The notes under the pieces were generated by a model. The model saw only the letters and a program-made list of their open reading frames with translations. It was not told the origin of the DNA and did no database searches. The translations under genes and the position numbers were made by a program. From Amphiura filiformis (lineage: Eukaryota > Echinodermata > Ophiuroidea > Amphilepidida > Amphiuridae): a DNA stretch of 64,000 bases. The stretch is from positions 9,493,274-9,557,273 of the forward strand of contig NC_092647.1 in assembly GCF_039555335.1 (NCBI RefSeq), given 5' to 3'. This document shows positions 1,888 through 55,900 of this stretch, in pieces. The number at the start of each line of letters is the position of its first letter. The first letter of the stretch is position 1.

Positions 1888-1933
1888 ATGATGAAAAGAT
1901 TGTTACTGGTGTTGGTTGCATTAACTTCTGTGG
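1888..1933 (+). CDS. Exon 1: start codon and most of the signal peptide
   Basis: Two ATGs in tandem (1888, 1891) open a Lys-Arg then Leu/Val-rich stretch that reads, across the junction to exon 2, [19 protein letters not shown]. This has the basic n-region, hydrophobic h-region and small-residue A-F-A cleavage site of a secretory signal. The donor is gtaagt at 1934 and the exon leaves phase 1, which matches exon 2. The start is chosen because the signal ends exactly where the first CTLD begins. At 46 nt it is too short to be found by open reading frame length. An upstream non-coding exon is possible. Confidence 0.85.
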
Positions 1934-19900: not shown

Positions 19901-22900
19901 TACCAAAGGCCTTCAATAGTTATTTCGTTGAGCAGAGGAATCACCTCAGGTATCACACAAGAAACGCTGAAGATTACAAGATCTGTCTTACAAAAACAGA
20001 GTTTGCTAACAAAACAATAAGAACCGCCGGGCCAAGAAAATGGCATTCGATTGACAGATGCGCCAAAACGGCTACATCAGTAAAACTCTTTAGATCCCAA
20101 ATTAAAACAAACCTTATGGAAATGTACACTTAATATCTCTTAGTTTTGATTTACTTATTTTTATTTTTCTCCCTTTTAAAACAAAAAATCGATTAAAATT
20201 AACTGATCTCTTAGCATTTATATTATATTTACAAAATGTTCAGCTTTCTTTTGCGATATACGTGAGCATATGTTATGAAATCCTAATTTGTCTTACACTT
20301 ATATTCTGCATGTTCTTTATTCATCATTTTTTTTTGCTTAGTTCGTTCTACATGAATGTATGAAAGAGGGTGGGGGGGGTGTTTGTATGTATGTATTTGT
20401 ATTTTATTAGATAAATTAAGAAACTTAGGCTAAGGTTAAGGGGGTGCTTGTTCAGGCCTTTTTGGCCTTCTGAGCATCTCCTCATTCAAATGTGTTGTCT
20501 TGCTGTTATTGTATTGTTGTATTTTGAATGAAATAAAGACTGATTGATTGATTGATTGATTGAAAGGTATTAATGATCATTATGGTAGCATTAGTGTCTG
20601 TCTGCCACCAACAAATCAGTTGTTTTTGAGTATTTGAAATCAATCATTTAATTGAGATATCAATTCTCAACAATTGAATATTATATAAAATGATTGATTG
20701 CCCAAAAGTGGATACCAATTATTCATCTTCTTTTGAATATGTTTTGTTGCACTCTTGTCCCATACCCATTTTGTGATATTCATACAGACACCACTATTCT
20801 ATGTGATCATGACAATGGGTGGATAACCTTTGCTGACAAATGCTACTACTTCAAAGATAGCTGGCTTAAATCCTGGGCAAGTGCTGAAACCTGGTGTGCT
20901 GGTCAAGGTGCAAATCTCGTCTCAGTTAACACCAAAGAGGAACAAATCTTCCTCAATGATCTGCAGATAATCTTCCAGCAAAAATATTGGATTGGTTTTT
21001 CAGACAAGGTAATGTAAACCAATTAATGTTTTTCCGTGTTTGTTCAATTCAGACACAACCATCCTATGTGACCATTTTAATGGATGGCAAACATTCCAGG
21101 ACAGATGTTACTATTTCAGAGAGACAAAAAAAAATTGGAAAAATTCAGAAAAATGGTGCGTGGGTGTAGGTGCAAATCTTGTCTCAGTGAATAGTCAGGA
21201 GGTGCAGACTTTTCTGAATGCTGTACAACTCACTTATGCAGATAACTATTGGATTGGCTTCTCAGATAAGGTGAGAACAGGTCAGTGGGTCCCTATCAAA
21301 CACCAGTGGCAGTGCTACAGGGTGGGTGGGGGTCAAGGAATATTTTTCTTTCCCCCCCCCCAGTTTGCCCCTCGCCACTTTTGAGGCAAACCCCCAAGAT
21401 TATGTCAATTTCCACTTTTGGCGGCAACTTTGCGCAAGATTTTGCCCCCTGGTGCTGCCACTGTGGAAAACATTACCTTGTATGGAAGACATGACCTTAA
21501 TAATCTACAGTGGCAAAGCCTGAGTCATCCTTGGGGGTAGGGATCGAATATGATTGGGGGCAACGATCAATATTGGGGGCACAATCCATTTTTTTGTAAT
21601 TTTCCTATGTGATTTTCTAAATTTTCAAATCAATCAGGGGGTGTATCCCCCTGTATGGTGCCTCTATATGCTCTGCCACTGACAGGGAGTGGGAGTTTCA
21701 AATAGGGTTACCTGAATTGAACCCCATTTGAAGTCTGGGTCCCCTGGGGATAAAAGATCATGTCTTCCATAGGGGGTGTATGGATTTAGAATAGCCCAAT
21801 GTTGGAATCACAAAATCATGGTAGCCATGTTGGAATCACAAAATCATGGTAGCCAGGGTTGCCAATTGAAGCAAACAATATACAAAATGCCATGGCATTC
21901 ATGCTCACCTGGCATTTTGAAAAGGCCAGCAGCAAATAAAACCTTATCATCATTTACTATTTTTGCTCATAAGTGCACTCAATACATTAGTATACTTTTT
22001 ATACACACACACATACCAAAATGTCGAGTACAAAGCATCTGTTTCTATATTAAATAGAATTGTAGTCATGTCAGCTACTTATTCTTATGCATTTTTCTTG
22101 CAAACACAAGTGAAATAGTGAAATGATGTACATTGTACATGCACAGTAGGGCACTCAGTATTTCAATCAGGGCACAGTACCAACTCAAACTCATTTTTTT
22201 GAAACAGAGAAAAAAAATTGTTATAAGACTAGTACTGCTACCCATCTGATTAAGTTGACGGAAATTTCTGCTAATGTCATTTTACATGTTTTAAAATTAT
22301 AAGAACTTTTCACTAATTTGAAAGCTATGTATATTCCTTTTCAGTATGCCCCAGCAGCTGGTCAGTATGAGTGGTCAGATGGGTCATCTTCAACAGATTT
22401 TGTGAATTGGGCTGCAGGACAACCAGATAACTCGTAAGTTTGCTGCACGTATTGCTTCAGTGTTTTCAGTATATGATAGCCAAATGTTAATCTTTACCCA
22501 TAGGAGCCAGCGCACATAAACATTAAAAAGAAACCAGTGCGTTGGGTCGGATTTGAACCAGTGACCTTTGTAATACTAGCACGGCACTATAACCAACTGA
22601 GCCACAGAGGCTTGCTGGAGAAGAGCTTGAGATTTAAATCTATAGGTATTAGGTTTGAATGATGTTTGTTACATTCCTAGCAAAAGACATCAGAACTGCA
22701 TATTTATAACCAATACACAAAATCACACAGAGTTGAAAATTATTATACTTAATTCTTATGTCTGGGTTAATAGGATGAACAAATTTTAAAATAAAATAAT
22801 TTCCACCCCTGATATGTTACTTTGTGTGTTTGTTATAAATTGCTAGTATTATGAAGGTCGATTCGGGCCAGATGCACTGTTCTTTATTTTAACATATGCA

Positions 22901-25900
22901 CTGGCAGTTCTGGGTAAAGATTAAAATTTGTTCATCCTATCAACACCAAAGAACTAAGTATAATAATTTTCATGATAGCCTAATGTTTGCATAAGGTAAT
23001 GATCATAGTAACTAAATTTTCAAAAATGCCTCTGGCCTCCATAGACCAGATCATATCACATACTTCTGGCCACTAGCCAGTTGGGCAGGTAACCTGAAAA
23101 AGTTACCAACATGACAGAAATGTTGCCAACCTGACATTTGCCCTAGTCAGAATATGTCTATTAAATAATTTAACGAAAAATATAACTACTCTGACCGTGT
23201 TGTGACCATTTGATTTATTGAATATTGATGCATGGAAAAGGAATAATAAGATATTGCTTCACTGAGGAGTATGTGTGGCCGAGTGGATAAAGCGCCCGAC
23301 TCATAATCTATAGGTTGAGAGTTCGAGCCCCGCTCGTGCCAACATGTTGTGTCCTTGGGCAAGGCACTTTATCCTCATTGCATACGGGTTATTGGGTGGA
23401 GTTGGATGTTTGTATAGTTGTTTGTTTCGATGTTGCAATATTGGCACTGATTAAGCTGCTGCCTGCAAAATTGCATTGTGTCTGTTCAAGTGTGTTTAAT
23501 GTAAATTCTAGCAATTTGACCTGCGGGTCACTATTAGAGTTTGAAATAAAAAAACCTTCCACTTTCACATTTCTTTCTTCATCAGTTCATCCATCCCCAC
23601 TGTCTTTTAGTTTTGGAGCTTTGTCCGAGTTGTCCCCTGCAACATTTTTCTGATATTTATAATGAAACTCTCTTTTCACTAAAACGAACCCAGAGCTAGC
23701 ATTTCTTACACATCAGGCTGGTGGATACTTTTGGAAATTTACCTGCCCGACAGCAAAGTCACCCACCCTTGGTGTTTGGGCAGGTGTTCAAGTACATATC
23801 ACATATATCAATATCTGCAGATAGCTGATTGCAAATTCATTAGGATTGGAAACCATGTCAGCATCATTTTTTTTTGTGACAATTAAGAAATTGTATGGGT
23901 TAATCCGATGCATGAATGCTTGGAAATCAAGCAGCTTGTTAACAGTTTGATTTTTGTTCACCAGCCCTACATTTTATCATCCTGTTATGGATTTGCTAGT
24001 TCTTTTATAGGGTAGCTGTTCCAAACTCTATGGTTACCTAATTTTTGCATCACCAATGTGGTGACCCATTAACTCTAACATTAAGAACTAAGACAAAGCT
24101 TTCCAAAGACAGTAAGGATCGATACAAGATGGTCCCATACTGATATGCATCTCCTAAAACATTGCATCTGCAAGTAAAATGTGTAATCGATGCAGGATTT
24201 AGATCTGCTCAGGGTGGCACCATGGAGGACACCCAGAAAAACACCTTGGAAAACAGCCCAGTCAAACAGTAAATTTGCATTATCTTGGTCAAAATTGCAC
24301 AATTTTATTCAATTTGTTTAATTTTTTGTTGAATTGTGAAATGTACCCTAAACAAATTCTGATGATGGCACTATTAGAGTGTTTCTATTACCGATAAAAC
24401 TGTTTGCCGTCAAATAGTGGCGAAAGGCAGATAACGGTCAGTTTCCATTGCACATTGTTTACCGGTAAATACTTGATGAACAGCATCGATTGACACGCCT
24501 TTAAAGTTTGCCGGTGAAAGGTTGTGCACTGATGTCAATCCCTGGGTCAATGGCAAAGCATTGTGGAATTTAGTATTGTAGTATTTTCTTAATTTTTTGG
24601 CTAAAAATGAGGTAGCAAACTCGAGAAAAGAAGACTGAAGAATATGGGTTTTTTTATTAGCGTTATCATTCGTTCTCGTAGGCCTATCACATTACGTCAT
24701 TGGGGAATCCCCTCAAATATAAACAAGCTAGCTCATTGACGATGCAGAGGTCAATTTCGCGACTCAACTTCCGTTTTCTTCCCCGTATGTGCATTCTCTC
24801 GGAACGGAGTGAGTTTCTATTGGAGTTTGCTGGTAAGCGTCCCGCTATTTTTCTTCCTTAAGAAGGAAAACGTTACCGGTAAACTCTCACCGCTATTTAC
24901 CGGTAAATAGCGGGGAAGGTCAGTTTCTATTGAGCAGAATTAATCCCTTTACCGTCTCTTTACCGGTAAATGGTCCCAATAGAAACACGCCTTATGCTTA
25001 ATGAGCCTCGAAATTGTCTTGGAACTTTGTAATTTTGGATGAGCTATGAAAACATTTATAACAAAATGACTGAAATCTCATATTGCTTAGAAGCAAACAT
25101 GTCCCTACCCAATGTCATTTATGCATAGAAGCTTTTAAATGCAAGTGTGCTTGAAAGTTATGATAACTAGATATTTGAGGCAATGCAGAGTAAGACCCCC
25201 GAGATGGTGTCAAATGAATGAGAAAAAAATAAGGAATACAATTTTGAAAGAGCCTGGTCACGGCCCAGTTTGGGAACCTCTGCTTTTCCAGATCCAGATT
25301 GACACTTGCTGAGCGAGGTTCAGCATTTGTCTGTCTGTGTGTATTTTGGAAAGACTTGATTACTCAAAGTTAAATGTTTATCATACTGAATTTAAATGAT
25401 ATGTGAAAAAGCAAGTTTGTTTTCAGGAAAAAATTGTTTCAGTTTGTTGTCATTGTCAAATGGACTTTCCAAAGCGTTTCTGTGAAATTAGTTTGCCTAT
25501 GTGTTGATTAACTACAACAGAAATGTAAGCATCAAACTTGTTTGTTTGTTTTACTAGAAATTACAACAATGGTGGTAACTGTGCTCGTGTGCTAAATACA
25601 GCAACTAATGGTGAATGGAGCACTGAGAAATGTGGCAATACTAACTACTTTGTATGCGAAAGAGACCAAGGTAAGCACAGTGCCAAGGCACGGCAAATTG
25701 TGCCAAGGCACGGCAAATTGTCTCGCCAGACCACGGTAAATGACTCTTAAGGCAGGAAACTTGGTTCCCACATGTTGGCAAGGAAAAATTATAAAAACAC
25801 CTTGATTTGTATGAGTAAACTACACATCCCAATGCTTGAAACCACAAATATTTGAGTCACTTATCAATATCAATTAGTTAGTTTAACCTTAATTTTAGGA

Positions 25901-28900: not shown

Positions 28901-31900
28901 TGTGTTCAATTGTATTAGGTATAGCGATTATCATTTTGGGGACTTCATAGGGGGTTATTTTGTATACCGGAACTGGGTTGTTTTTATATATATTTTATTA
29001 TACCTATGGTTTTACGAAAATATTGCAGTTTCTCAATTTTCCGTTTGGCGCATCTGGTGTGCATCTGGCCAAGTGATTGAAGTGCATACATATAGCCATG
29101 GGACCTGTGAGCCAACCCTACGCTTTTTTGCCAGAAAAGGGTATATTAGAAATATTGTTCACATTTTAGCGATAATAGTTGTCAAAGGGCAAATAATTTG
29201 CGAAATTGCGAAATGAGATGAAAAAGGGTGTGTTTTTAAAGTTCACCGACAAGCATGTATATCCGCTTGTGGATCAATGTCTAGGCATTGTGTCTGTGCG
29301 TAATCGCTGCGCTTTTTTTAATGATATGTATTTAAAGTGTAATTTAGCTGGGAGGAAAAGTCGACAATCAATTGAAAATTTTGACCTTTCATATTGAAGA
29401 TATACATTTTAAAAGCACCTAAAATGTTCATAATCATATATAATCAAAGATAAAAGACTTGTTTATGTTTGACATCAGGGCGTAGGTGTGACATGAAATA
29501 GTCTTTTTACTATGAGCACTTTCATGTAATGGTGGAGTGGGTCAAAGGTCAAATGAGATAAACAAAAGCAAGTGACTCGTAAGCCATCTTGTCTGTCTCA
29601 CAATTTACAATATAACATATGAGCATGCCATTGGATTTTAAGCTTAATGATATTCTTTTGAATTAATCTGACAAAAGTCATAGCAATGGTGTGACAGGTT
29701 TGGCCTAAATAATGTCACCAACCCCAAGTCTAAACATGCATTGCGTTATTTACAAATTCAAATTTGTTGATTTTCTCATATATTAGGTACATGCCCTGTT
29801 GGTTGGAGAATACACCAGGGACAGTGTTACCAACTCAATGCTAATAACAGAAAGACATGGACAGATGCCAAGCATTATTGTGATGTGCAGGGAGCATATA
29901 TGGTCACAATTGTTTCGTAAGTATGGGTGCCAAGCATTACTCTGATACACATGGAGCATGGACACAATTGTATCGTATAGATGCCAAGCATTACTGTGAT
30001 ACACATGGAGCATATATGGTCACATTATTGTATCATATAGATGCAAAGCATTACTGTTAAAGACATGGAGCATATATGGTCACAATTGTATCTATTATTA
30101 GGTTGACAGAAAGATACAATCACGTAGATCACATATATAGTCTGGGGCAGCATCATTATCATGGCCATCACTTAATTTGTTTTGTTTCAGAGATGCAGAG
30201 AATCAGTGGGTGACATCTTTGTTGCCAGAATTAGCAGGTGTTGGAATAACTGACTTGTACATTGGTATCTCAGGTAAGTCTTGATAATAAATGATGTCAT
30301 GTAAAAATTAAGGAGTCCGGTCAGGTGATAGTTCTAGTTTTCTGATCGGAATATTCATGAGCTTCTGCCATTTTGTCAGGCTTGCACATACAAATGTGCT
30401 GTCTGCTACAGCGGAGGTAGTAAACTTTGAGTAAAGTTGATTTATAACTCTTTTTGTTTTCCAATTGAAATTTATGTTAAAGGTGTTTGAGCTGATTGAC
30501 AACCTCTCACATCCCGTAGATATTTTTGAGAAGCACATCCCTGTATGCCTCAAATATGATTCCCCGTTAGGATATGTTTTTTTTTTTTTTTAAAATTCTC
30601 CAACTGTATTAATTTCACTGCATAACAGATGTGGTTACCGATGGTAAATTCCAATGGTCACAAGGAAGTTCAGTGTCATACACCAACTGGAATCCAAATA
30701 TGCCAAAGGATACAGCAGGCCAAGATGACTGTGGTAACATGTATACAGGTATGTTACAATATTGCTCTACAGATATGCCTCATGATAACCCAGGCCATTT
30801 TTCATGTCAACCGCTATTTCATAGCCAAAATTAGCGAAAAATAATTATATCGAAAATTTTGAAGACTGCTACATTTATTTTATCATTATATTTGCTTTGG
30901 GGTTTTTAAAATTGTATTTTAATCATGTTATTTAATAGGGTCTATTGATGATTTATCGTGTTGCTTTTTAATAATTATTGTTGTACATGTAAGTGATATT
31001 TATTTTTGCTGTATCATTTTATACTATTGTGTTTTTAACCATGTTATTTGCTATTGTACAGCGCTGTGGTAATTTTTGATATAGCGCTCAATAAATGATG
31101 TGATATATATACAGTCCTAGCTAAAGAGTATCGCTTTAGCACTATTTTTCCGTTTCCCTTTCAAATATACCCTGCATACTCTGAGACACCCTGTATACAA
31201 ATCTAGAACCCTATTTGCCCTAAATTCAGGATTTTTGTAATTCTTTATTTTTTCCGGATGGCAGTATCCATTCATATACAGGGTGTCCCAAAAAAAAAAG
31301 CAGTCCCTCATTGCGCCCTCTTTTGCGCCTATTTTTGAAAAGTTAAGTTAAGTTAATCAAATATATTTTGGTATGTACAGAAACCTTTAATTGTTAGCTT
31401 TAATAAAACAAAACAATTATTTCAATCAGCTCACAACTTTTGAAGATATGCTCTTTTAAAGACAAGTACCCGTTTTTCACTCTGTCCACGGATAGCAAAC
31501 AGAGTGGTTGGGATGGGTCATGCTGTGGAGTGGCCTGCAAGACCACCTGACCTCACACCACTTGATTTCTTCATTTGTGGCAAAATCCAAGATCTTTGCA
31601 AACATATTATTGCTATATTCACACGTATCCGCACACAGGGTTGGTAATGCACGCAATTGATGCAATGAGGACTAGGGCTGAAACCTGTATTCGTCATGGA
31701 GGCAACCAGGTAGAGGTCAAAGCAGCACAGTAAACTCACTTCAAAAGAACCAAAGACAAACTAAACAGCCCTTTTCAGGGCTACCTTTTATACCAAAAAA
31801 GAGAAATGACTTATGTTGTCAATAAAAAGAAAGCAAGTAAGAAACATAATAAATTTAAAAAGGCATGAAATAACCAAGAAAAACATAACTAATTGCAAGT

Positions 31901-37900: not shown

Positions 37901-40900
37901 TACAGGTTGGGATCTGTTTGGTGATTACTGTTATTATATCTCATTGAATCATTGACTTATCTGTTTCCTTGTCTAGGTTCTGGTCGTTGTGAGACAGGTT
38001 GGGATCTGTTTGGTGATTATTGTTATTATATCTCATTGAATCATTGACTTATCTGTTTCCTTATCTAGGTTCTGGTCGTTGTGAGACAGGTTGGGATCTG
38101 TTTGGTGACTATTGTTATTATATCTCATTGAATCATTGACTTATCTGTTTCCTTATCTAGGTTCTGGTCGTTGTGAGACAGGTTGGGATCTGTTTGGTGA
38201 CTATTGTTATTATATCTCATTGAATCATTGACTTATCTGTTTTCTTGTCTAGGTTCTGGTCGTTGTGAGACAGGATGGGATCTGTTTGGTGACTATTGTT
38301 ATTATATCTCATTGAATCATTGACTTATCTGTTTCCTTATCTAGGTTCTGGTCGTTGTGAGACAGGATGGGATCTGTTTGGTGACTATTGTTATTATATC
38401 TCATTGAATCATTGACTTATCTGTTTCCTTGTCTAGGTTCTGGTCGTTGTGAGACAGGATGGGATCTGTTTGGTGACTATTGTTATTATATCTCATTGAA
38501 TCATTGACTTATCTGTTTCCTTATCTAGGTTCTGGTCGTTGTGAGACAGGATGGGATCTGTTTGGTGACTATTGTTATTATATCTCATTGAATCATTGAC
38601 TTATCTGTTTCCTTATCTAGGTTCTGGTCGTTGTGAGACAGGTTGGGATCTGTTTGGTGACTATTGTTATTATATCTCATTGAATCATTGACTTATCTGT
38701 TTCCTTATCTAGGTTCTGGTCGTTGTGAGACAGGTTGGGATCTGTTTGGTGATTATTGTTATTATATCTCATTGAATCATTGACTTATCTGTTTTCTTGT
38801 CTAGGTTCTGGTCGTTGTGAGACAGGATGGGATCTGTTTGGTGATTATTGTTATTATATCTCATTGAATCATTGACTTATCTGTTTCCTTATCTAGGTTC
38901 TGGTCGTTGTGAGACAGGATGGGATCTGTTTGGTGATTATTGTTATTATATCTCATTGAATCATTGACTTATCTGTTTCCTTGTCTAGGTTCTGGTCGTT
39001 GTGATACAGGTTGGGATCTGTTTGGTGATTACTGTTATTATATCTCATTGAATCATTGACTTATCTGTTTCCTTGTCTAGGTTCTGGTCGTTGTGAGACA
39101 GGTTGGGATCTGTTTGGTGATTATTGTTATTATATCTCATTGAATCATTGACTTATCTGTTTCCTTATCTAGGTTCTGGTCGTTGTGAGACAGGTTGGGA
39201 TCTGTTTGGTGACTATTGTTATTATATCTCATTGAACAAGATGGTATGGGCAGATGCCAACAGTCAGTGTGTATCCATGAATAGCCAGCTCACCAGCATC
39301 CACTCAGCAGATGAACAGTCATTCCTAGTTGGTGAGTTAAACAGTGATGATGAAAAGCAAACAAACTGGGAAAAGTCAATCAAAATTTCACTTCCCACCT
39401 TGGAAATATTAATGAAAAGAGCAGAAATTCCAGAGCAGAAATTCCAAAAGTTATAAATAATATGAAAGAATACATCTGGTAACTGAATTTGAAAGAATTA
39501 GTGCTCTGCTGGTTCTATACAGCTTTCTTTACAGACTGGACAATAGAGCAAAGTGCAGTGGGAAGGGTGCCAGTATTCATGCTTGCAACAAAGCACATGG
39601 CATCCAAAAATGGCAAGATATCTTGAAGAACACAGTTTTTGATTGATGAATAGGTTCCAAAATGGCAGCACAAGATGTGATTTGTACAAAAGATACACAT
39701 TTACAAAAATACGGTTTTGGAAGTGGTACAGTTCTTCTTTTCAGCATTCCATTAGGCATAGGTAGTCATTAAGTTCCACTGCCTGAACAGAATTTGCCTC
39801 CTTTTTTCAATGAAATCAATGGTAATAACTCTTGAAGATGAAGTGAGTTATCAACATTTAACTACAAATTGGTGTCATTAAATCAGAAAAAATACAATTG
39901 TGTTCAGTTGATCACTGACAATTTATGATCACGAGGTGATAAGGGGTGTCCAACTGAACTATATATTAAAACAAAATGGTGAACTTTGTTTAAATTGTCC
40001 AACTTGAATTAACATCAGTTTGCTCTCTTATATTCTTGCAATGTAGCTCGATTGGATGTATACAAATCATCAACTTGGATTGGCCTCAATGACAATGCTG
40101 TGGAAGGCAATATGGTTTGGACTGATGGAACACCTGTAAGTTAAATATATATCAAGTGTAATAGCTCTCTTTTCTTCTCTCACTCCCTCCCTCTTTCTAT
40201 CGTTCCTTTCTCTCCCCATCTGCCTATCATAGACACTGTGTATTGAATGGAGTGCTGGGTGCACACCATCCCATCTGCCTATCATAGACACTGTGTATTG
40301 AATTGAATGCAGGGTGCACACCATCCCATCTGCCTATCATAGACACTGTGTATTGAATTGAATGCAGGGTGCACACCATCCCATCTGCCTATCATAGACA
40401 CTGTGTATTGAATTGAATGCAGGGTGCACACCATCCCATCTGCCTATCATAGACACTGTGTATTGAACGGAGTGCAGGGTGCACACCATCCCATCTACCT
40501 ATCATAGACACTGTGTATTGAATGGAGTACAGGGTGCACATCATCCCATCTGCCTATCATAGACACTGTGTATTGAATGTAGTACAGGGTGCACACCATC
40601 CCATCTGCCTATCATAGACACTGTGTATTGAATGGAGTGCAGGGTGCACACCATCCCATCTGCCTATCATATACACTGTGTATTGAATGGGGTGCAGGGT
40701 GCACACCATCCCATCTGCCTATCATATACACTGTGTATTGAATTGAATGCAGGGTGCACACCATCCCATCTGCCTATCATAGACACTGTGTATTGAATGG
40801 AGTGCAGGGTGCACACCATCCCATCTGCCTATCATAGACACTGTGTATTGAATGTAGTGCAGGGTGCACACCATCCCATCTGCCTATCATATACACTGTG

Positions 40901-43900
40901 TATTGAATGGAGTGCAGGGTGCACACCATCCCATCTGCCTATCATATACACTGTGTATTGAATTGAATGCAGGGTGCACACCATCCCATCTGCCTATCAT
41001 AGACACTGTGTATTGAATGGAGTGCAGGGTGCACACCATCCCATCTGCCTATCATAGACACTGTGTATTGAATGTAGTGCAGGGTGCACACCATCCCATC
41101 TGCCTATCATAGACACTGTGTGTTGAATGGAGTGCAGGGTGCACACCATCCCATCTGCCTATCATAGACACTGTATTGAATGGAGTGCAGGGTGCACACC
41201 ACCCCATCTGCCTATCATAGACACTGTGTATTGAATTGAATGCAGGGTGCACACCATCCCATCTGCCTATCATAGACACTGTGTATTGAATTGAATGCAG
41301 GGTGCACACCATCCCATCTGCCTATCATAGACACTGTGTATTGAACGGAGTGCAGGGTGCACACCATCCCATCTGCCTATCATATACACTGTGTATTGAA
41401 TGGAGCGCAGGGTGCACACCATCCCATCTGCCTATCATAGACACTGTGTATTGAATGTAGTGAAGGGTGCACACCATCCCATCTGCCTATCATAGACACT
41501 GTGTATTGAATTGAATGCAGGGTGCACACCATCCCATCTGCCTATCATAGACACTGTGTATTGAATTGAATGCAGGGTGCACACCATCCCATCTGCCTAT
41601 CATAGACACTGTGTATTGAATGGAGTGCAGGGTGCACACCATCCCATCTGCCTATCATAGACACTGTGTATTGAATGGGGTGCAGGGTGCACACCATCCC
41701 ATCTGCCTATCATAGACACTGTGTATTGAATGGAGTGCAGGGTGTACACCATCCCATCTGCCTATCATAGACACTGTGTATTGAATGTAGTGAAGGGTGC
41801 ACACCATCCCATCTGCCTATCATAGACACTGTGTATTGAATTGAATGCAGGGTGCACACCACCCCATCTGCCTATCATAGACACTGTGTATTGAATGGAG
41901 TGCTGGGTGCACACCATCCCATCTGCCTATCATAGACACTGTGTATTGAATGGAGTGCAGGGTGCACACCATCCCATCTGCCTATCATAGACACTGTGTA
42001 TTGAATGTAGTGCAGGGTGCACACCATCCCATCTGCCTATCATAGACACTGTGTATTGAATGTAGTGCAGGGTGCACACCATCCCATCTGCCTATCATAG
42101 ACACTGTGTATTGAATGTAGTGAAGGGTGCACACCATCCCATCTGCCTATCATAGACACTGTATTGAATTGAATGCAGGGTGCACACCATCCCATCTGCC
42201 TATCATAGACACTGTATTGAATGGAGTGCAGGGTGCACACCATCCCATCTGCCTATCATAGACACTGTGTATTGAATGTAGTGCAGGGTGCACACCATCC
42301 CATCTGCCTATCATAGACACTGTGTATTGAATGTAGTGCAGGGTGCACACCATCCCATCTGCCTATCATAGACACTGTGTATTGAATGTAGTGAAGGGTG
42401 CACACCATCCCATCTGCCTATCATAGACACTGTATTGAATGGAGTGCAGGGTGCACACCATCCCATCTGCCTATCATAGACACTGTGTATTGAATGGAGT
42501 GCAGGGTGCACACCATCCCATCTGCCTATCATAGACACTGTGTATTGAATGGGGTGCAGGGTGCACACCATCCCATCTGCCTATCATAGACACTGTGTAT
42601 TGAATGGAGTGCAGGGTGCACACCATCCCATCTGCCTATCATAGACACTGTGTATTGAATGGAGTGCAGGGTGCACACCATCCCATCTGCCTATCATAGA
42701 CACTGTGTATTGAATGGAGTGCAGGGTGCACACCATCCCATCTGCCTATCATAGACACTGTGTATTGAATGGGGTGCAGGGTGCACACCATCCCATCTGC
42801 CTATCATAGACACTGTGTATTGAATGGAGTGCAGGGTGCACACCATCCCATCTGCCTATCATAGACACTGTGTATTGAATGGGGTGCAGGGTGCACACCA
42901 TCACATCTGCCTATCATAGACACTGTATTGAATGGAGTGCAGGGTGCACACCACCCCATCTGCCTATCATAGACACTGTGTATTGAATTGAATGCAGGGT
43001 GCACACCATCCCATCTGCCTATCATAGACACTGTGTATTGAACGGAGTGCAGGGTGCACACCATCCCATCTGCCTATCATATACACTGTGTATTGAATGG
43101 AGCGCAGGGTGCACACCATCCCATCTGCCTATCATAGACACTGTGTATTGAATGTAGTGAAGGGTGCACACCATCCCATCTGCCTATCATAGACACTGTG
43201 TATTGAATTGAATGCAGGGTGCACCACCCCATCTGCCTATCATAGACACTGTGTATTGAATGGAGTGCAGGGTGTACACCATCCCATCTGCCTATCATAG
43301 ACACTGTGTATTGAATGGAGTGCAGGGTGCACACCATCCCATCTGCCTATCATATACACTGTGTATTGAATGGAGTGCAGGGTGTACACCATCCCATCTG
43401 CCTATCATAGACACTGTGTTGAATGTTGTAACACATACATCTTCTCTAGACAGACACAATTGATCTTTGTTTTGATAAAATGGCACCCTCCTAAAGAAGA
43501 CACATTCATCATGTTTGCCATCAATTTTTGGGAATCCCAATTTGAAAAAAAAAATGCCTAAACATATTGGGAATTTCCCAGTGTCCTTAAAGAAGACGGG
43601 CAAATTTTCTCAAATTTAAAAAAAATTCCCAACATGTAAGGAATCTATATTAACTATTTTGCTCTTTCTTCTCAAAAGAAAAGATAAAGTGTAGTTTTAA
43701 TATGCCATATGTTTGCTATACATTGGGACAACAATGCCATGTGCTCATAACCACCCATTACCTTGCTAATTATGCTAAATAACATTTATGCTGAAAATGT
43801 TCAGGTATTTTTACAAGGATGCATTAAAGGGAAAATATTTGACATTGTAAGCAAATTAGAACAAAATTTATATCTTAAACTAATCTGGTTACCCCGTTTA

Positions 43901-46900
43901 AAAGCATCTTAACTTCTGAAACATCTTTTTAGAAAGGTATGCCTTGAATTTAAAATAAAAAATTGAAGTGGTCTCAGAAATTAGCAGGCAGGGATGCTTT
44001 ACCTATTTATGTTTTGCATGACCTTACTATTTGATAAACCTTACATTATATCACACTGTATCAATAGGTTGATTTTACTAGCTGGTCTTCAGGTGAGCCA
44101 AAAATTGGGGATACTGGCGACTGTGTTCGTATGAAGAGTGACCGCAGTAAATTTGGAGAATGGCGTGATAGTGTGTGTGATGGTGAAGAAGAAACCTGGC
44201 CCTTTGTATGCAGAAAACTAAAAAGTATGTATCAAATTACATCTGTTTTACACAAATTCTTACATTATTTTGCAGTTGGATTTTACCAATTGGGCTCCAA
44301 ATGAACCCAAGCTTGGAGATGCTGCTGATTGTATAAAATTGAAAGATGACTTGAGTATGTTTGGAATGTGGAGAGATGCTGAATGTACAGAGGTTAGACC
44401 ATTTGTCTGCAGAAAACAAAAAAGTAAGACAACTGATTTTCATTCCAAAATTTTAATTCTGAACAACTTCAAGGGAAATTCACGCATCTGTTAAAGACCA
44501 ACAAAATTTGTAAAATTGTCAGAAATCACTTGAAGTAATTGAAATATCAACAACATACGAAGAAAACTGAAAAGCTTTGTCCATTTGTGAAATTGTATTC
44601 TCTGTTGGCTATACAGCGATATTCTGTATGCCCAGAAAATAAAGAATTAAGATTTCTCTCTTAACATGAATATGCATTGTCAAGTTTATTCATTATATGG
44701 GTTATTTACTACATTAGTAAATATTCTTAAAGTTCCAAAAACCAATGTGTGGGGAATGATGTATATTGGGATTGACAGATCTCTGAATGTCACCTTCATC
44801 TTAATCTTAAACCTAACCCAAATGTTAACCCTGACACATTACAGAATGTCTTAATGCTGACCCTAATCCTTGTAATCAAAAAAGCTTATCAGAATATGTT
44901 GTGCAAGTCCAGAATTTTACTCATGTTTTAGACGTTTTATCTTCTGTGCGGAAAATTTCCTCAGTAATGCACCTCTGGTCTTCCTACTGTCATTCCCAGG
45001 GAGTGTAGTTGCAGTAGCTTATGAGTTCCTTCATCGCGATTGATGATGTTATCTCCCCACTTTCTGATACACATTGCTCCCCTGATCCACCATGTTTGTT
45101 TACATGAATCTTTATCCAATTTATGACACTGTAAAAGTAAAAGTGCAATTTACTAAGTATTCATGCACAATATACAAAAGTATAAATTTTTCAAATGGAA
45201 AAGAGTCAAGATTGTTTTAGAACAAACTATCATTTTTATATTTCCTGATTCAATACTGGCCTTTGTGTTTTTCCTTAATCTTGACACTCTATTCTAGTAG
45301 GGATGACCAGTAAAATTTCATATTGCCCCAATTGCTACAAAATATTGTTTTCTGGTTAGCACTTATCCACAGAAGTATTTTGGTAGTTAAATGGTCAAAA
45401 TCGGTCAAAAACTTTTCGAATTATGAATTTTCAAAGTTTCCCATTCTGACCGGTCATTGGTACGAAATAAAATGACACAAGTCCAAAAATAGCAATTGGG
45501 AGCAAAATTGGCGTAAGCATATATTTACCTTTATATATTTCTTTATTTTAACATATATGCAAACATGAAACAAGCATATTGTGAAAGTATCAAAGAGGTG
45601 AACTTTTTTTTCACAACCAAAAATATCAATGTTATTGAGTTTAATATGACCAATTAGTAGGTGTATGCAAACAAAATGAAGCTCATTGACTTCACAACAA
45701 TAGAGGTTATCCACTTCACTCATGTGTGACTTCTAACAAAAGGCGCTGGTTCCTGTAGTATTCCTCATTCAAACCAATTCAATGCAATGACTTCAGAGAT
45801 ATCTGCATGACTTTGGCGGGCTATGTTGAACAGTTATGGTTGCACATTCAGGTAGTTCTTTTGAAAGTCCTAAACAAGGTATAGCAGTCGCTGATAGGAT
45901 ATGCAGCTTATAGAACACAGATAAAAAAATACATCGAATGAGCATGAAAATTCACATTTATGTTCAGAAAGGTGTCTTCTTAACATGATTCGAAAGGAGT
46001 ATGGAAATTCCAAAGGGAAGCTGGTGATTTAATTTGTAACTCAAGATCTACTTGATACATTTTTTAACCTTTTTACAGAGGATATGATAGAGGTATTACT
46101 GGCAACTCTGCCAAATTACAGCCCAGTAGGCCAAGGTTTTCACCTGATCCTATTGATCTGAATATTTTGTGCCATTCTGAGCAGTGCTGAACTCAGCCAC
46201 TGGCAATTAAGCACACTGTGGCGATGGACCAATTTTGACTCGCACTTACAGGAAAACAAAATAAGTTATGTTGCTGTAATTTACAGGATAGTTACAAAAT
46301 ATAATTGGCATTAACTTCCTCAATTTTTACAGAAAATATTGAAAAATAAAAGAATGAGCTCAATTTAGAAAGATCTGTGCAAGCAGTGCACAGCTGAGCT
46401 CCCTGCATGTCTATAGGAGTGTTCTAACCAAGTTGATGGTTCGATTCATTGGTCATCCCTAATTCTAGGGACTTTTTTTGTCTTGCCGAAGGTAGTATAC
46501 TATGTAAGCCCTTTTCCCTATGTATATATGTATGGGTGTATATATGTGATAAATATTTTTTGGTCAATCATCTCAGGTGAGAGGATTTCCATACCTCCAA
46601 TAATAACTTCTGTTACCAAAGTTCATGGCACAAGTGGCCAGTCGTGAAATCAGGCGAGGCTTGTGGTTCAAGAACTGCCTTGTTTCATTTTTTTTGTATC
46701 TGCCTTATTATTGACCAAATAAATCACAAAATATGACTTTTTAAATTTGTAGTCAATAATCTGTGGTGAATAAGGTCAAATAATGCTTAGTTTTCTTTGC
46801 TTTCTATTTTTGACAACAACCTGTCCATCAAGGTGAAAGGCAGTGACATATTGTGCACTCTTGGCCAATATTTTAGTTATTCCTAACAGGGTATTTGTGT

Positions 46901-49900
46901 GTGAGTGAAATAACATTGTATGTGACATTTTCAGCATCCATTAGTTTTTACAGGAAAACCTGGTTTAAGCTTTGTTTAAATTAAGAGCAAAGCTTCATTC
47001 AGTAATTCTTAGTTAAGAAAAGGAGATGAACATTATATATGATTTCTTAGTTATAATTTCATGACTTCATTGAAGTTGCTTCTACTGACTAGGATTGCTT
47101 TACACGTTGCAGTAATTGCTACAGTTAGTCTGTGACTCACTCACACTCACACTCACAATATATTTTTATATTACAGTTGATGATAATACCCCAGTGACTC
47201 CAAGTGTACAGCCCTCAAGTAAGTCACTCATTCATTGTGTTAACATGATAATACCCCAGTGACTCCAAGTGTACAGCCCTCAAGTAAGTCACTCATTCAT
47301 TGTGTTTACATGATAATACCCCAGTGACTCCAAGTGTGCAGCCCTCAAGTAAGTCACTCATTCATTGTGTTTACATGATAATACCCCAGTGACTCCAAGT
47401 GTACAGCCCTCAAGTAAGTCACTCATTCATTGTGTTTACATGATAATACCCCAGTGACTCCAAGTGTACAGCCCTCAAGTAAGTCACTCATTCATTGTGT
47501 TTACATGATAATACCCCAGTGACTCCAAGTGTACAGCCCTCAAGTAAGTCACTCATTCATTGTGTTTACATGATAATACCCCAGTGACTCCAAGTGTACT
47601 ACCCTCAAGTAAGTCACTCATTCATTGTATTTACATGATAATACCCCAGTGACTCCAAGTGTACTACCCTCAAGTAAGTCACTCATTCATTGTGTTTACA
47701 TGATAATACCCCAGTGACTCCAAGTGTACAGCCCTCAAGTAAGTCACTCATTCATTGTGTTTACATGATAATACCCCAGTGACTCCAAGTGTACTACCCT
47801 CAAGTAAGTCACTCATTCATTGTGTTTACATGATAATACCCCAGTGACTCCAAGTGTACAGCCCTCAAGTAAGTCACTCAATCATTGTGTTTACATGATA
47901 ATACCCCAGTGACTCCAAGTGTACAGCCCTCAAGTAAGCATAACCACATCCAGTTACGAAGGAGCGTAGTCACATCCAGTTACGAAGGAGCATAACCGTT
48001 TCAGTGGTAAATTGCAGTTGTTAAGATGAGATGTAAGGAAAGAAAATTAGTGAAAAAGTTCACATTTCTTGAATTTTGTTCTGCTTCATTGGTTCTTTTT
48101 TTTCTGGTTTACTATCATAACACAAATCATTCTATACTTGTAATTACCAGGAGCTCATGATCTTCATTGCGGTGAGGGCTGGGAACTCAACACTGACAAT
48201 GGCCTTTGCTATACATTCCGTTTGGGTCAGTACAAGTCTTGGCAGGATTCTAGATCTCAGTGTAGAATGGAAGGTGGTGATCTGGTCAGCATTGGGGTTA
48301 TGATGAAGAGAATTATCTGATGGGTAAGCTTTGTTCCTTTTTATAAGAAGCCCAATTATGTTCTGCATATTTAATGTATGATTTCAGTCAAATTTTAATT
48401 TTGTTATTATTTGCCCAAAATTATTACATAATATTAGTAACAACTGTCAATGAGGTTTTCTGATCATTTTAAGCTAAAAAAATGAGGTAAAATGAAAGAC
48501 ATTAAAGGCCCATTCAGTGATTTGCTCATTCAGATAATCATCAAAATTAATTGATTTGCTAACATAGCCTGCAAGTGGCTCAGCCGAAAGCTGTGTATTA
48601 CACACTGCGTCAGCTATTGGCTCGGGCGCATTTGACCCTGCGCCTGGACATGCTAAGAAGAAGACAGACAAAATATGACATTTAGCATGAAACTAGTATT
48701 TCTCTACTTAGGTTAAGAAATTGGCTCCATGTATTTGAATGGGGCTGCAACTTTGTCAATACTGCTCAGTGTTTCAAAAATTACCAATGAAAATTTTAAT
48801 GATTTATCCTTCACGTTTTAGTAACTTGTACTCAATTTTTTTTATTTTTACACTTTCACTGTGGTCACTGAATGTGTCTTAAATTCAAAATTGCTTTGTT
48901 GTCCTACAACACATTAAATTTAAGCTTGGACATGTGTAATCATTACAAATATCCCCCAAAATGCATTTGAGATTATACATGACTTTAATGCTCAATTGTT
49001 TTTGTTAGAAGCCCCTTCATTTGTTGAAATGGCAACCCTGTAAATTAAAACAATACAGCAGGCAGACACATGTACCAAAGTTGAAGTTGCACTTAAAGCC
49101 ATAATAGCTGATTTCTTGACCAAAAATTATGAAATAATATTAGTAATAACTGTCAGGAAGGTTTTCGGTCCATTTTGAGCAAAAATTAAATAGGATTATG
49201 TCTTCCGTAGGGGGTATATGGAATTCAACTGGAAAAACGCAATTTGCCTGGCTACCATGGTAACCCATTATTAAACCTGGCTACCATGGTAACCCATTAT
49301 TAAAGTTTTTTTTTAATCAATATTTAGACCGATTGAAAAATACCAATGATCCTAGTGGGTGGATTGGAGCAAATGACTTGAGTGCTGACGGGGGATGGGA
49401 GTGGTCTGACAGCATGCCATTACGATACATCAACTGGGATTCTGGTAAGTGCTAACAAACACTCCTCTACTCTACATCAATATCTTTTGTCATAAATTTA
49501 TTACAAATAAGAAAAAAATTGGAAAATGTATTGGATTTCTTGTAATAGAATCAGAAAGCTTGACATGATGCTCAAAACACCAAATAGTGTTAATATCTTG
49601 TCCAATGGGTTAGTTTTGCTCATCCTGGAACTGGTAAATGTTATATTAGAGGTTTTTCTATGTGTTAACTCATTAAATTCATCACTGTTCCCTCTTTTTG
49701 AAGGTGAACCCAGTAATATTGGTGGGGAGCATTGTGCTGAGATGTTGTATGTAAGTAATGGCAGAGGAAAATGGAATGATATAGACTGTGATGCTACGCT
49801 CACATACATATGCAAGAGAAGTCGTAAGTGTCAAGCAATTTGTACAAAATATAGAAACTAAACATGATACAAAACAAAATGCAATAATCTTTAGCTTGAA

Positions 49901-52900
49901 TTATTATACAAAAGTTTACAGACCGATTGCATTATTAAATTATCCCAAACTCATTGTTTGAAATTAATACAAAGATTGGAAGTAAGCTTGGTCCATACAA
50001 CTGAAAATCTGTAAAGGAAAGTTTTCCATATTGGAACAACCAAACAGTTTTGAGATTGACCCTGGTGCATTTGGAATGTGTAGAATGAGTGAAAGTAAAA
50101 TTTGAAGAAAGATACTCAGTAGCAATGTTTGTGAGACATTTTACAGTTAAAATAAATAAATAAATAAATACATAAATACAAAAAAAAAAAAAAATGAATA
50201 CAAAAATAAATAAATAAATAAATAAATAAATTATGATATTTTTCAACCAACTGTATAATCTCTCTAGGATTTTTAAATATGACAAATAAATCATTTGAAA
50301 ATAATATATTTGCCATGTTATTTATCATATTAGAAAATCCTATTTTACCCTTTTGCTATTTTGTCATATTGCCCACCCCTAAAAGCTAGCACTCTAATCC
50401 TAATTCTAATCTTAACTTGGCTTTAATAGGGTGTAAGACCATACGTGCCACATATAAAGTTGCAGCAACAGTAAATTTAAGCTCATTAAATTTGAAATTG
50501 AAGGTGTTAGATCAGCCATAAAAGGAAGGAAATTCCTTGACGTTATTGAAATATTTGCACAGAATACAGAAATTATTTTAGAGAGATGTCCAGAACATTG
50601 AAATCCTTTATGATCAGGTGTATCATTCTACAAGATTGAAATTTTTAGCCCTGTATGACATTCTGTATTTGTTGTATTTTTCTTCACTTTAGTCTGTTAT
50701 CTCTAAGGTTTTGCATTTTTACTATACACCACCATATATAGTTCACATACTGCATGCGTTTTTATCTTGTCTTTGTCTTATTTCAAATTGGTATACCTGC
50801 TTTGAATTAACTCACAATATTATTAATAATGCATTCCTTTTACAGCATTTTTATCTAAGAATTTCTATGTCTATACCATGGGTAAAGTGGATGGCTATGA
50901 TAATGCCATCTTAAGTGATATGTGGCCTCAAGACTGCGCCAAAGAGTGTGTCTCCACAGCAGGATTCACATGTCGTTCTTTTGATTATGATCGTGTGAAT
51001 CGTGTATGTTATCTGAGTGCTGTGACAAAGGATGATGTTGGTGGTTTGACTCCTACTTATGACACATACCCCTTTGATTATTATGAAAGAGGTAGGTGTA
51101 ATCTGTTCATCTGGACTTACTATTTTTGATAGCGACAGTATCGCGTCTCATCCAAGACGCATCATCAGGCTGATTGACCAGGTTGTTGACTATTGACCTG
51201 TGACGTACTTGATGGTATGACGTCACAGGGGAGTCGCCGGGGTAGCTTCTGGATTGCTGCGTCGTAGGTCCTTGACAGGTTGTGGCGAAGTCCCCCTCCT
51301 CTGTTGAGCGAAGGTTCCTCCCGCCGGACATGTATTGCCTCCTTAACTCCTCTTTCAAACCACTTATGTTCTCTGTCGAGCACTAGCACATCCTTGTCCT
51401 CAAAAGAATGATTGGCAAATTTGAGGTGCGTATAAACTGCCGAATCGTTCAAACCTGTAGAACTGGGTCTACGGTGCTGATACATACGCTTGTGCAAGGA
51501 TTGTTTAGTCTCCCCTATATAGGAGTCCTCACAGTCAGAGTCCTCACAGTCCCCTGTGACGTCATACCATCAAGTACGTCACAGGTCAATAGTCAACAAC
51601 CTGGTCAGTCAGCCTGATGATGCGTCTTGGATGAGACGCGATACTGTCGCTATCAAAAATAGTAAGTCCAGATGAACAGATTTAATATTCATTTTATTAT
51701 GCTGACTTAAACTTAATTTTAGAGTTTATTTTGACTGAGAAGAAACAGTGATTTTATGTTAATATATAGTTCACTGATATGTTATAGTAAGTGTGCACAT
51801 AGCAGAAATATCCATGCATTTAATTCTAGGTTAATAAATGCGTACCACTTGTTGAGAGTGAAATTGTACAAAATAATGCATGTATACTGAGATGTTGATG
51901 CATCTAATGCATGGGCCTCGAATGGGGAACTGCATTATTTTATACAATTTCTCGAGCAAAAAGTGATATGCATTTATTAACCTATTTCATACACGAAAAA
52001 AACTTCCGTGATTTTTACTATTTTATAACAAAATTGTCACTGAATATGTTGGAAAATGCAAGCAAATATAAATGCATCCACCCGCAAGAAAAATGAACGT
52101 GTCCAAAAGCACTGCTCATACAACGCGGAATGCGCACCCGTGCGATTATACAATATTTATGCACGGACAGTAATATAGGAGTCTATGAATCATAAATTAA
52201 TACACTGTTGCTGTTGGTTTCTGTGTAAGTCCCAATTTTATCTCGCAATACAAATTGGCTCTGGGAACTTTTGTTTGCATGATAAACCACAAATCAACAT
52301 TTTTTCACAATTTCTTCGGAAATACATAGATTTGGAACATCAAACTTTTGTTGTGACAACATAACAAAAACATAGCTCTTTCCAATTTTTTTGTTACCTA
52401 GCTGGTACTGTTTTTCTATCCGATTCCTCTTTCTTTCTTTCTTTCTTTCTGGCAACAAACTTCAAATGCTTCTCCTCCTACATGTTACACCCTACAATTA
52501 CGTAACTTGCACATATGTACCGCCTATATCCAGTGCCCATATGGTGCAAACAGAATTGGGATCAAAGGTCATTAAAGGGGCATTTTTGGTATATAACCAA
52601 ATATCTTCAAAATGCTTCTTCTGCCACATATTACATAGCACAATGACGTCACTTACACATGTGCATCGGCTTTACCCAGTGCCCATACCTTGCACACAGA
52701 ATTGGGGTCAAAGGTCATTAAGGGGGTAAAATCTTACAATTACATTATCTGGACATCTGTAAGGAGTATGGGGCTCAAACTCGATACAATGAATCTCATG
52801 ACCAGGGGAACATTTGCGGGGTCAGGTCAAAGGTCATGCAGAGGTCAAATTTTAAAAATGCATTTCCTGGACATCTGTAAGGGGTACGGGGCTCAAACTT

Positions 52901-55900
52901 GGTGACAGGGGAACATGTTGGAACACTTTGCAGGGGTCAGGTCAAAGGTTATCTGGGGTCAAATCTTTATAACTTCATTTTCTGGATATCTGCAAGGGGT
53001 ATGGGGCTCAAACTCAGTGACAACAAATTTCATGACCAGGGGAACATTTTGCAGGGGTCAGGTCAAAGGTCATGTAGAGGTCAAATTTTCTAAATGCATT
53101 TTCTGGACATCTGTTAGGGGTACGGGGCTCAAACTCCACAACAACAAACTTACTGACCTGGGGAACATTTTGGAACATTGTGCAAGGGTCATGTCAAATG
53201 TCAAATTTTCTGGATATCTGTAAGAGGTACCTCAAGACCAGGGGAGCATTATGGAACATCATGCATAGGTCAGGTCAAAGGTCATCTGGGGTCAAATCTT
53301 AGAATTGAATTTTTTGGACATCTGTTAGGAGTACGGGACTCAAACTCGGTGAAAACAAACCCCATGACCAGGGGAGCATTTTTGGAACATTTTGTAGGGG
53401 TCAGATACATGTACCTCCACAACACCAACATGCCCCAGCTAGGTTTGTGGTCTATGACCACCATTTGCCACTAGTTTTGTTTGTTTCTTAATGAGATTTT
53501 TATTATTTTATGTTATTTTTTTTTGTTTTTGAGATATTTTGACCATAGAAGGAACAAAATTTTTTTTAAATTCTCACATGCAAATCTGCATAAAATGATG
53601 CTTAATATTGGCCAAAAAATTCAATGAGCATTATTGCTCATCAATCAAAACTATGAAAACCATAGTGGTTCGACTAGGAGAGCATAATATTATGCTCCAG
53701 AGAAAAAAGTAGATGTTAGACTAGGAAAGCATATGCTCCAGAGAAAACCATCTCCTACTCTAACCTCTATGGTTTTCCGTAGAGAAAAGTGTAATTGCAT
53801 TGGTACTACCATAATAGTGTAGTATACTTCTGGAATTTTGTGAAAATTACCAATATTAAACTATAGGATGCATCTCTAAGTCATGTGAGTTCAAATATAA
53901 TCAGCCCAATGCATGCACATCACAAACATGTGCTCATTTTATATCAAAAGTTTCCTGAGTGTGTGGAGAAATGATCAGTATGTACAAATGAGTAGCTCGC
54001 ACATGCCAATATGCAGTGTTGCCAAAACTCTTCTGACCAATACACGGTCACAAAATCCATTGTTATTGCAATTTGGAGCTTCAGAGACTTAAAGCCTTTA
54101 GAATATGGCTAAATGAAAGGAAAATATGTCAAAATACTGTCTCATTCTGACTCTTGCAAAGTAGCCCAATTTTAGGCAAGTAGCACCACATTGTTTTTTT
54201 AAAGTAGCAGCAAGTGATCGCCAAGTAGCCCAATTGTGCTTTGGCTCTAGGCTTATTGCCAACTTATTTGATGCTAATTGCTCATCATTATACATCATTC
54301 CCAGATATGAGTATTACAACAGCTCCACCACCCACACCAGTACCACCTACCTATGGCTGTAGTGGAGACTACCAAGGGTACAATGGATATTGCTACAAAC
54401 ATAATCTGATAGCAGAGGAGTACATGGAATCTCAAACCAGATGCAGAAATGATGGGGCAGAATTGGTATCTATACACAGTCTTAATGAGAACAACTTTTT
54501 ACTGGCTTATGTGAATGATGGTAAGCTGTGAAAACAAAAGTAATCAAATAATGGTCCAAATAGGAACATGTATGCTATTATACGAGTGGATATTCATACC
54601 TGAGTGGAAGAAGGACCCAACTCCATCAACACTTTTTTTGAGATATTAACAAAAAACACAATATTTGGAAAATAAAGGGACAGACTGTTTTCATCTTTAT
54701 GAGGATCTTTAAAACTGGTTTAGAACATCCATTATGCATGTGACTTGCTACCACGAAATCAGCATAAAGTCGCTGCAACTTCATACTCATTTTGTTGATT
54801 TGGTAGTTCAAGATATTTGGTCTGACTAAGTTGATGTTCTTTGTTTGCCGCCACCTGTACAAGCAAGTAGTATTATCCTTTGTGAATGGCCCATGGTGCC
54901 CCCATTCACAAAGGACTTACAGACCCTTAGTGGCTTTAACAGGTGAGTGAACACCAATGCAGTGGTCAGGGTGTTTTGAGTGACTAACACCTTACATCTT
55001 TATGCTGATTTCGTGGTAGCAGGTCACATATGTGTGAAATGATATATGTTGCAATGACAAAGGTACAGGTCTTCAAAAAAAATGATAAACTCATTTTTGT
55101 AAAATGGAGTTAGGCTCTTCTTCCACTCAGGTATTCAATGGATTTGATAATCTGCAGAATTTGGCAAATATCTCTTAAATCCTATAAATGTGGCAGATGA
55201 TTTGCATCTTTTGTAACGGGTCAGTACAAAATGTAGGCTGGCTCAAATTGGCAGTCTTTTGTTTCTAAGGAGAACACTTCAGTACTGGTTTGATTGATGC
55301 ATTGGATCCCCTAATGTAGGCAAACCCCAATGTACACAAGAAGCAATCAACCACCTTGCTGAACACTTTCCAAATTTGCTTATGAAAATGTTCTTGGTAT
55401 ATTAATAACAAACAACTTATTTATTAACAAAATATGACAAACTACATGTAGTTTCTTCTAGTGACACACGTCATTGGATTGGTCTAAATGATTTGAACAA
55501 TGAAATGTTGTATGAGTGGTCAGACAGTACAGACGTCAAATTCACATACTGGTGGTTTGGTGAACCAAACAATTCAGGGGATGAAGACTGCTGTGAAGTG
55601 TTCAATAAAGGAGATGTAAGTACCTATGCAGACAGTCTAGTCTTTTTACTGTCAGGATAATGAATGTTTCTCTTCATTGTATACCAAATACAGTGTCTTA
55701 TTTTGATGAACGCCATTGGATTGGAATGAATGATTTAAATCAAGAAATGTACTATGAATGGGATGATGGGACAGAGGTTACTTTCACTCTGTGGTATTAC
55801 TATGAACCAAATAATTCTGGGGAAGAAGACTGTTGTGAAGTCTTAAACAGTGTAAGTTACAGATCATATCGAGGTAGGTCAACAGTCACCATTTGGATTC

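Follow-up and report, generated by a model that had tools for sequence, protein, structure and literature searches.

Tandem exons of which one or the other is spliced in, as in alpha-tropomyosin, form a known class of alternative splicing. According to the parts of the literature cited here, annotated substitutions of this kind number 236 in human, spread over 214 genes, and 154 in Drosophila (PMC9741552). A single mutually exclusive cluster is reported for 554 human genes, and a further seven are listed as having three clusters (TCF3, NEB, ANKRD36C and MTHFD1L) or four (TTN, CAMK2D and CUX1) (PMC5740500). Dscam of Drosophila, with four arrays, potentially produces 38,016 forms (PMC1397879). 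Single clusters of mutually exclusive exons in an immune context are described for two molluscs, with 12 exons in BgTEP2 of Biomphalaria and 6 in CfTEP of Chlamys (PMC7016707). Here, we describe a 64,000-nucleotide stretch of the brittle star Amphiura filiformis (NC_092647.1, positions 9,493,274 to 9,557,273; hereafter the window), whose + strand carries part of a receptor gene with many C-type lectin-like domains (CTLDs) and three tandem exon pairs that probably act as mutually exclusive switches.

One simple route to such exclusivity is steric crowding. Exons 4a and 4b of OGDH are exclusive through branch points 25–41 nucleotides (nt) from the donor, with a threshold of ~50 nt, and the same source argues that donor-near branch points restrict intron size and exclude transposons (PMC7969005). 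Among the human exclusive clusters, the distance between donor and branch point is below 50 nt in 57 (9%), and exon lengths are not divisible by three in 377 (60%) (PMC5740500).

Tandem exon pairs, reading frame and intron length

A first-pass annotation, made from the letters of the window, had proposed one lectin gene with three independent tandem-exon switches. All three pairs are present, and the outermost borders fall at 20788 and 55851, as it had placed them. Switch 1 consists of exons B1a (20788..21008, 221 nt) and B1b (21053..21270, 218 nt), which encode the first half of CTLD B and run from phase 1 to 0. At switch 2, D3a (44068..44224, 157 nt) and D3b (44276..44423, 148 nt) encode the second half of CTLD D, from phase 0 to 1. 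Switch 3 consists of F2a (55452..55615, 164 nt) and F2b (55694..55851, 158 nt), from phase 1 to 0, which cover the middle of CTLD F with its EPN motif. All lie on the + strand. In each pair, two homologous exons are adjacent, share their phases and differ in length by a multiple of three, with remainders of 2 (221/218), 1 (157/148) and 2 (164/158). For F2a this match holds solely with the acceptor at 55450-55451; an acceptor 10 bases further on, at 55460-55461, was rejected for its phase mismatch with F2b.

The aligned copies share 45/72 (B1), 28/49 (D3) and 35/52 (F2) amino acids, or 57–67%. Among 17 exon-peptide queries, each copy found its partner as the best non-self match (E-values of 1e-29 or 2e-29 for B1, 3e-17 or 7e-17 for D3, and 1e-23 or 2e-23 for F2), and the next CTLD exon trailed far behind (8e-8 to 0.03). 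Hence, the pairs are tandem exon duplicates rather than shuffled domains, with duplicated units of 265 (B1), 208 (D3) and 242 nt (F2). The chance that a base-shuffled copy b is free of stops is 0.003 for B1, 0.015 for D3 and 0.008 for F2.

For a test of the reading frame, the neighbouring exons were translated at each site with neither copy, copy a, copy b, both copies, or both copies plus the intron between them. At B1 and F2, either copy alone gave no stops through the next exons, versus 4 to 17 stops for the other three arrangements. At D3, either copy alone gave an open frame as far as the end of exon E1, where a single stop (residue 190 or 187) is due to a frameshift in E1 itself (see below); neither copy gave 2 stops, both copies 11, and both copies plus intron 11, the earliest at residues 132, 143 and 160. 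Joint inclusion or joint skipping thus breaks the frame at all three pairs, in agreement with the first-pass view that asymmetric phases penalise joint inclusion. Its caution that asymmetry by itself is statistically weak was also justified. It had counted about 13 asymmetric positions among 24; the 13 hold, but the rebuilt model has 22 positions, and three positions drawn at random would all be asymmetric with a probability of 0.19. We therefore dropped phase asymmetry as evidence for the switches: being common in this gene, it can account for the way in which exclusivity would be imposed, yet it is no signal in its own right. Placement of the pairs in CTLDs is likewise true but has no evidential value by itself, because CTLD exons account for 21 of all 22 positions and a PAN domain exon for the other.

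The introns between the copies are 44 nt at B1 (21009..21052, + strand), 51 nt at D3 (44225..44275, +) and 78 nt at F2 (55616..55693, +). These are the three shortest of the 24 introns in the model, an outcome of 1 in 2024 if introns were exchangeable, and the short intervening introns of the earlier proposal are thus borne out: the remaining 21 range from 259 to 8143 nt, with a median of 1940 nt. If the branch point lies 18–40 nt before the acceptor, it would be 4–26 nt from the donor at B1, 11–33 nt at D3 and 38–60 nt at F2. The best-scoring candidates lie at +18 from the donor in the B1 intron and at +26 and +38 in the D3 intron, and the F2 intron has candidates at +33, +45 and +61; all of these branch points are sequence candidates, and the ~50-nt limit with which they are compared is a vertebrate one. 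By their lengths alone, the B1 and D3 introns leave no room for a donor-to-branch distance as large as that limit, which may differ in this animal. Set against the human figures, all three pairs here are asymmetric and two of the three meet the distance rule by length alone. The introns stayed short in a repeat-filled locus while synonymous sites saturated, which suggests a limit on their growth. As judged from their lengths, steric crowding would be a better explanation than docking of the Dscam type.

We consider it probable, with a likelihood of roughly 80%, that each of the three sites is a mutually exclusive cluster of two exons, kept so by crowding and frame. The copies, their phases, the frame logic, the intron lengths and the pattern of selection (next section but one) were observed directly. 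From these we infer mutually exclusive splicing, crowding as its cause, and use of both copies. In three CTLDs, a stretch of 49–73 residues would be encoded twice, by tandem exons that are spliced one or the other. The branch point of copy b would lie too near the donor of copy a for the two to be engaged together, leaving the short intron in place, and the outer exons would be joined to either copy a or copy b. Transcripts with both copies, with neither, or with the intron retained would lose the frame and could be expected to be degraded. The outcome would be two versions each of three domains, which differ in the scaffold half of CTLD B, the second half of CTLD D and the EPN half of CTLD F.

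Predicted consequences for the receptor

EPN and WND motifs are hallmarks of mannose-type binding in CTLDs. Both F2 copies contain the EPN motif and ED before a cysteine, and the common exon F3 supplies WND; both forms of CTLD F are thus predicted to be competent for mannose-type binding. The residues just before EPN differ between the copies (WWFG vs WYYY). Both D3 copies have EPK and WRD in the places of EPN and WND, which makes sugar binding of CTLD D doubtful in either form. At B1, the exchange concerns the half of CTLD B without the binding site, and the common exon B2 holds a QPD motif.

Independent choice at three crowding-locked pairs could yield eight receptor forms from one lectin gene, with the F2 choice altering residues beside the EPN motif of CTLD F. 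We regard this eight-fold repertoire as tentative and, on balance, unlikely. If it were true, glycan recognition would be tuned by splicing rather than by expansion of a gene family. The first-pass interpretation as a combinatorial receptor fared unevenly: diverged open copies, frame exclusivity and purifying selection on the copies were supported, and its Dscam-type logic, taken as a mechanism, was not.

The chances are nearly even, though a little below that, that the exons are exclusive but the three choices are coupled or set by tissue, for instance as two whole-receptor forms, one with copy a throughout and one with copy b, rather than giving eight forms. This would refine the reading of three exclusive clusters, and its odds overlap with those of that reading. 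In human, three quarters of the substitution isoforms from tandem duplicated exons are tissue-specific (PMC9741552), and two states per site would suit a coupled choice. However, we saw no positive sign of coupling, the sites are spaced 22.8 and 11.0 kb apart, and crowding acts locally at each site, which alone would yield independent choices. In the spliced message, the stretch from B1 to F2 would measure ~2.3 kb.

If both copies are used, the three exclusive clusters would amount to multi-site exon choice in a receptor of the pattern-recognition type. The case also bears on whether splicing alters the sugar specificity of a CTLD, and on crowding by ultra-short introns as a common and simple route to exclusivity outside vertebrates.

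Selection on the copies and alternative explanations

Third-position differences between the copies number 40 in B1, 22 in D3 and 27 in F2. By the NG86 method, nonsynonymous divergence (dN) is 0.26, 0.34 and 0.26 for B1, D3 and F2, respectively, and synonymous divergence (dS) is undefined through saturation in B1, 2.1 in D3 and 1.7 in F2. Maximum likelihood (ML) gave dS values of 1.7, 22 and 4.1 and dN/dS ratios (omega) of 0.16, 0.01 and 0.06. The ML dS is unstable for D3, for F2 and for the combined three pairs, and its large values signify saturation and nothing more. For single pairs dN is 0.23–0.34 by either method, with synonymous sites at or near saturation and an omega of ~0.16 or lower. 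The comparison of dN and dS called for by the first-pass annotation was thereby carried out, and points to purifying selection on the copies. In addition, the six isoform domains score alike on the Pfam profile Lectin_C (72.5–80.5 bits, against a cut-off of 22.6), and hence no copy looks degraded.

These results bear on the possibility that each pair contains an exon that is dead or decaying, left behind in a duplication-prone locus, which we judge very unlikely. The locus is indeed rich in tandem arrays, and three of them have a boundary within the edge of an exon (C1, D1 and G2), so that duplication into exons appears frequent; moreover, D3 permits some recent relaxation. Arrays that reach exon edges offer a ready mutational source for exon duplication, and therefore it is the retention of the copies, not their origin, that requires selection. 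Yet all six copies are open, in phase and flanked by GT-AG sites, with similar domain scores. A tblastn search with the 25 exons (E<=1; the D1 array at 37150-39170 excluded from the listing) found nothing below E 0.01 outside the model exons but the arrays at the edges of C1 and G2, and no full-length decayed copy. We also simulated a copy that had been neutral since the duplication, matched on third-position differences, with 400 kept runs and the observed identity without a stop as target. This target was reached in 0/400 runs for B1, 1/400 for D3 and 0/400 for F2. For a copy neutral during part of the branch, the probabilities for B1, D3 and F2 were 0.015, 0.23 and 0.025 at 20% of the branch, 0.0025, 0.15 and 0.01 at 30%, and 0, 0.04 and 0 at 50%. 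A coarser, unmatched simulation (150 runs per setting) agrees, except at the lowest divergences. Judged from these sequences, B1 and F2 are pairs of two constrained copies, at least until recently, and D3 appears to leave more room for recent relaxation of one copy. Retention of both copies by selection is thus strongly indicated for B1 and F2 and less so for D3. The first-pass annotation had named relaxed selection on one copy per pair as a refutation; for B1 and F2 the simulations reject it over most of their history, and for D3 with less firmness.

Several observations weigh against three exclusive clusters held by crowding. D3 tolerates one copy that was neutral for about a third of the branch (P 0.15 at 30% and 0.04 at 50%). 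At t 0.4, the coarser simulation does not clearly reject a neutral copy, with P values of 0.03 (B1), 0.17 (D3) and 0.04 (F2); in the runs of lowest divergence, third-position differences were far fewer than observed. The shortness of the introns may be inherited from the short duplicated units (265, 208 and 242 nt), because a short unit gives a short intron from the outset, and shortness is then not independent of duplication. The 78-nt intron of F2 admits a predicted branch point at +61, outside the ~50-nt vertebrate limit, although this depends on the candidate chosen. Furthermore, for human introns of 37–65 nt, splicing evidence is reported for 15 of 22 candidates (PMC4463651); since introns this short can be spliced in human, crowding is not absolute. 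Finally, exon E1 (48151..48323, + strand) lacks one base relative to the reading frame needed to join E2, which produces a stop at the end of E1.

If this frameshift were real, it would mark an allele in which all isoforms are truncated inside CTLD E. The gene or allele might then be a pseudogene, and the pairs fossils of a formerly switched gene, an explanation to which we assign a low probability. The missing base and the resulting stop would fit it, but this is the only frame lesion in 25 exons, and the joined protein, which uses copy a at each switch and has 1018 residues, contains no stop when the affected codon is read as X. The lesion adjoins a run of four G near 48296, which makes an assembly error plausible.

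Competing RNA structures, in which a selector pairs with one of several docking sites, have been proposed to keep the exons of the Dscam exon 6 cluster exclusive and are described for other clusters (PMC6071210, PMC1431710). This route, named by the first-pass annotation, is extremely improbable here: with the between-copy introns as sole selectors against 931–1500 nt of flanking introns, in this one sequence, the best duplex was no better than 60 shuffles in 6/6 tests (z from -0.81 to 0.33).

As for other signals relevant to exclusive splicing, none of the 25 exon donors matched the U12 start pattern used, leaving no pair of incompatible U2 and U12 sites, and an Rfam scan at the gathering threshold returned 0 matches. 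On a matrix built from the remaining 19 exons of the gene, the splice sites of the six alternative exons score as weaker (Mann-Whitney p 0.005 for donors and 0.049 for acceptors), even though the F2 donors are strong. In plain consensus counts, the six alternative donors match at 7–8 of 9 bases and the others at 6–9 of 9. Because these two measures disagree, we draw nothing from splice-site strength.

The receptor gene, its repeats and known systems

The window contains animal-type DNA, with split genes of CTLD and PAN exons. The receptor gene was modelled with 25 exons at 22 positions (7348-62711, + strand) and is open at both ends of the window. All 25 exons have GT-AG borders, and all phases fit except for the single lesion in E1; the borders were partly picked by phase, so that this agreement supports rather than proves a single gene. 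In the joined model, Lectin_C matches seven stretches (E 1.2e-131), a series of CTLDs in one chain, and PAN_1 matches once. Among solved structures, the best matches are the yolk sac IgY receptor, the PLA2 receptor, LY75 and the mannose receptors. From its sequence, the gene product is predicted to be a long receptor with many CTLDs, similar to the mannose receptor family. Members of this family carry a ricin-type and an FN2 domain at the N-terminus and a single transmembrane helix. The three + frames of ~1-15000 gave Lectin_C alone at E<=0.01, with no ricin-type or FN2 domain, in a gene that is open at both window ends.

The following exons, all on the + strand, complete the model. CTLD A is encoded by A1 (7348..7496, phase 1 to 0), which covers its first part and whose acceptor has a low score in the matrix derived from this gene and may be wrong, A2 (10443..10564, phase 0 to 2) and A3 (18708..18847, phase 2 to 1), its end with EPN and WND motifs. 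The A3-B1a intron contains reverse-transcriptase-like open frames, noted by eye, at 19101-20133. CTLD B continues with B2 (22345..22433, phase 0 to 2), where the QPD motif lies, and ends with B3 (25558..25670, phase 2 to 1). Four exons encode CTLD C: C1 (29787..29916, phase 1 to 2), C2 (30191..30273, phase 2 to 1), C3 (30629..30748, phase 1 to 1) and, at its end, C4 (33137..33208, phase 1 to 1). CTLD D starts with D1 (39173..39331, phase 1 to 1) and D2 (40047..40135, phase 1 to 0). In CTLD E, E1 is followed by E2 (49328..49444, phase 1 to 1) and the terminal E3 (49704..49823, phase 1 to 1). The PAN exon (50846..51091, phase 1 to 1) stands between CTLDs E and F; to our knowledge, vertebrate mannose receptors show no such CTLD-PAN-CTLD arrangement. 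F1 (54305..54520, phase 1 to 1) encodes a linker and the first half of CTLD F, which ends with F3 (60375..60482, phase 0 to 0), the exon with the WND motif. CTLD G is encoded by G1 (61353..61471, phase 0 to 2) and G2 (62563..62711, phase 2 to 1) and is unfinished at the window end.

Three of the tandem arrays touch these exons. Roughly four copies of a 60-bp unit extend from the 3' end of C1 into the intron (29863-30092). A 92-bp array of 22 copies (37212-39236) ends in D1, and its units comprise the D1 acceptor, the beginning of the exon and then a stop. The sequence TCTAGGTTCTGGTC occurs in 22 copies in this array, the real one included, and the true D1 acceptor may compete with 21 decoys. 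Another array extends from the end of G2 to the window end (62674-63996), with units that contain the last G2 codons and the G2 donor; from 62703 on, GAGAACCAGGTAGGT occurs in 10 exact copies, the real one included. A satellite is close by at two of the three switches. A 55-bp array of 58 copies (40215-43419) fills most of the intron before D3a, and a 42-bp array (55922-57254) starts ~70 bases after F2b. A 65-bp array (47180-47938) lies within the intron after D3b.

In the open-licence literature, covered mostly at abstract level, we found no multi-CTLD receptor for which exclusive exons are reported, and the parts consulted of PMC9021376, PMC9013439, PMC5343826 and PMC5826192 contain no such case. 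In these parts, the paper on LOX-1 mentions exclusive exons merely within a general list of splicing types (PMC5343826), and the exclusive splicing named in PMC5826192 is that of MASP1. The type of switch is thus already known; what appears to be new, within the literature searched, is its probable occurrence in a multi-CTLD receptor family.

We know of no exclusive CTLD exons in the mannose receptor family. The receptor described here resembles that family (MRC1, MRC2, PLA2R, LY75 and the yolk sac IgY receptor) in its chain of CTLDs and its best structure matches, and differs from it in the PAN domain between CTLDs E and F; in the part searched, no ricin-type or FN2 domain was seen. Like BgTEP2 and CfTEP, it would have exclusive tandem exons in an invertebrate immune recognition protein, but these occur as one cluster in a thioester protein (PMC7016707) and as several clusters in a lectin here. 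With Dscam and the human multi-cluster genes it shares several separate clusters per gene (PMC1397879, PMC5740500); in contrast to Dscam, it has two exons per cluster and at most eight forms, and a docking signal was not found by the duplex search. The closest likeness in mechanism would be OGDH, where, as presumed here, one of two adjacent exons is used and the distance between donor and branch point is below ~50 nt (PMC7969005). The difference is that three such clusters would lie in one lectin receptor gene.

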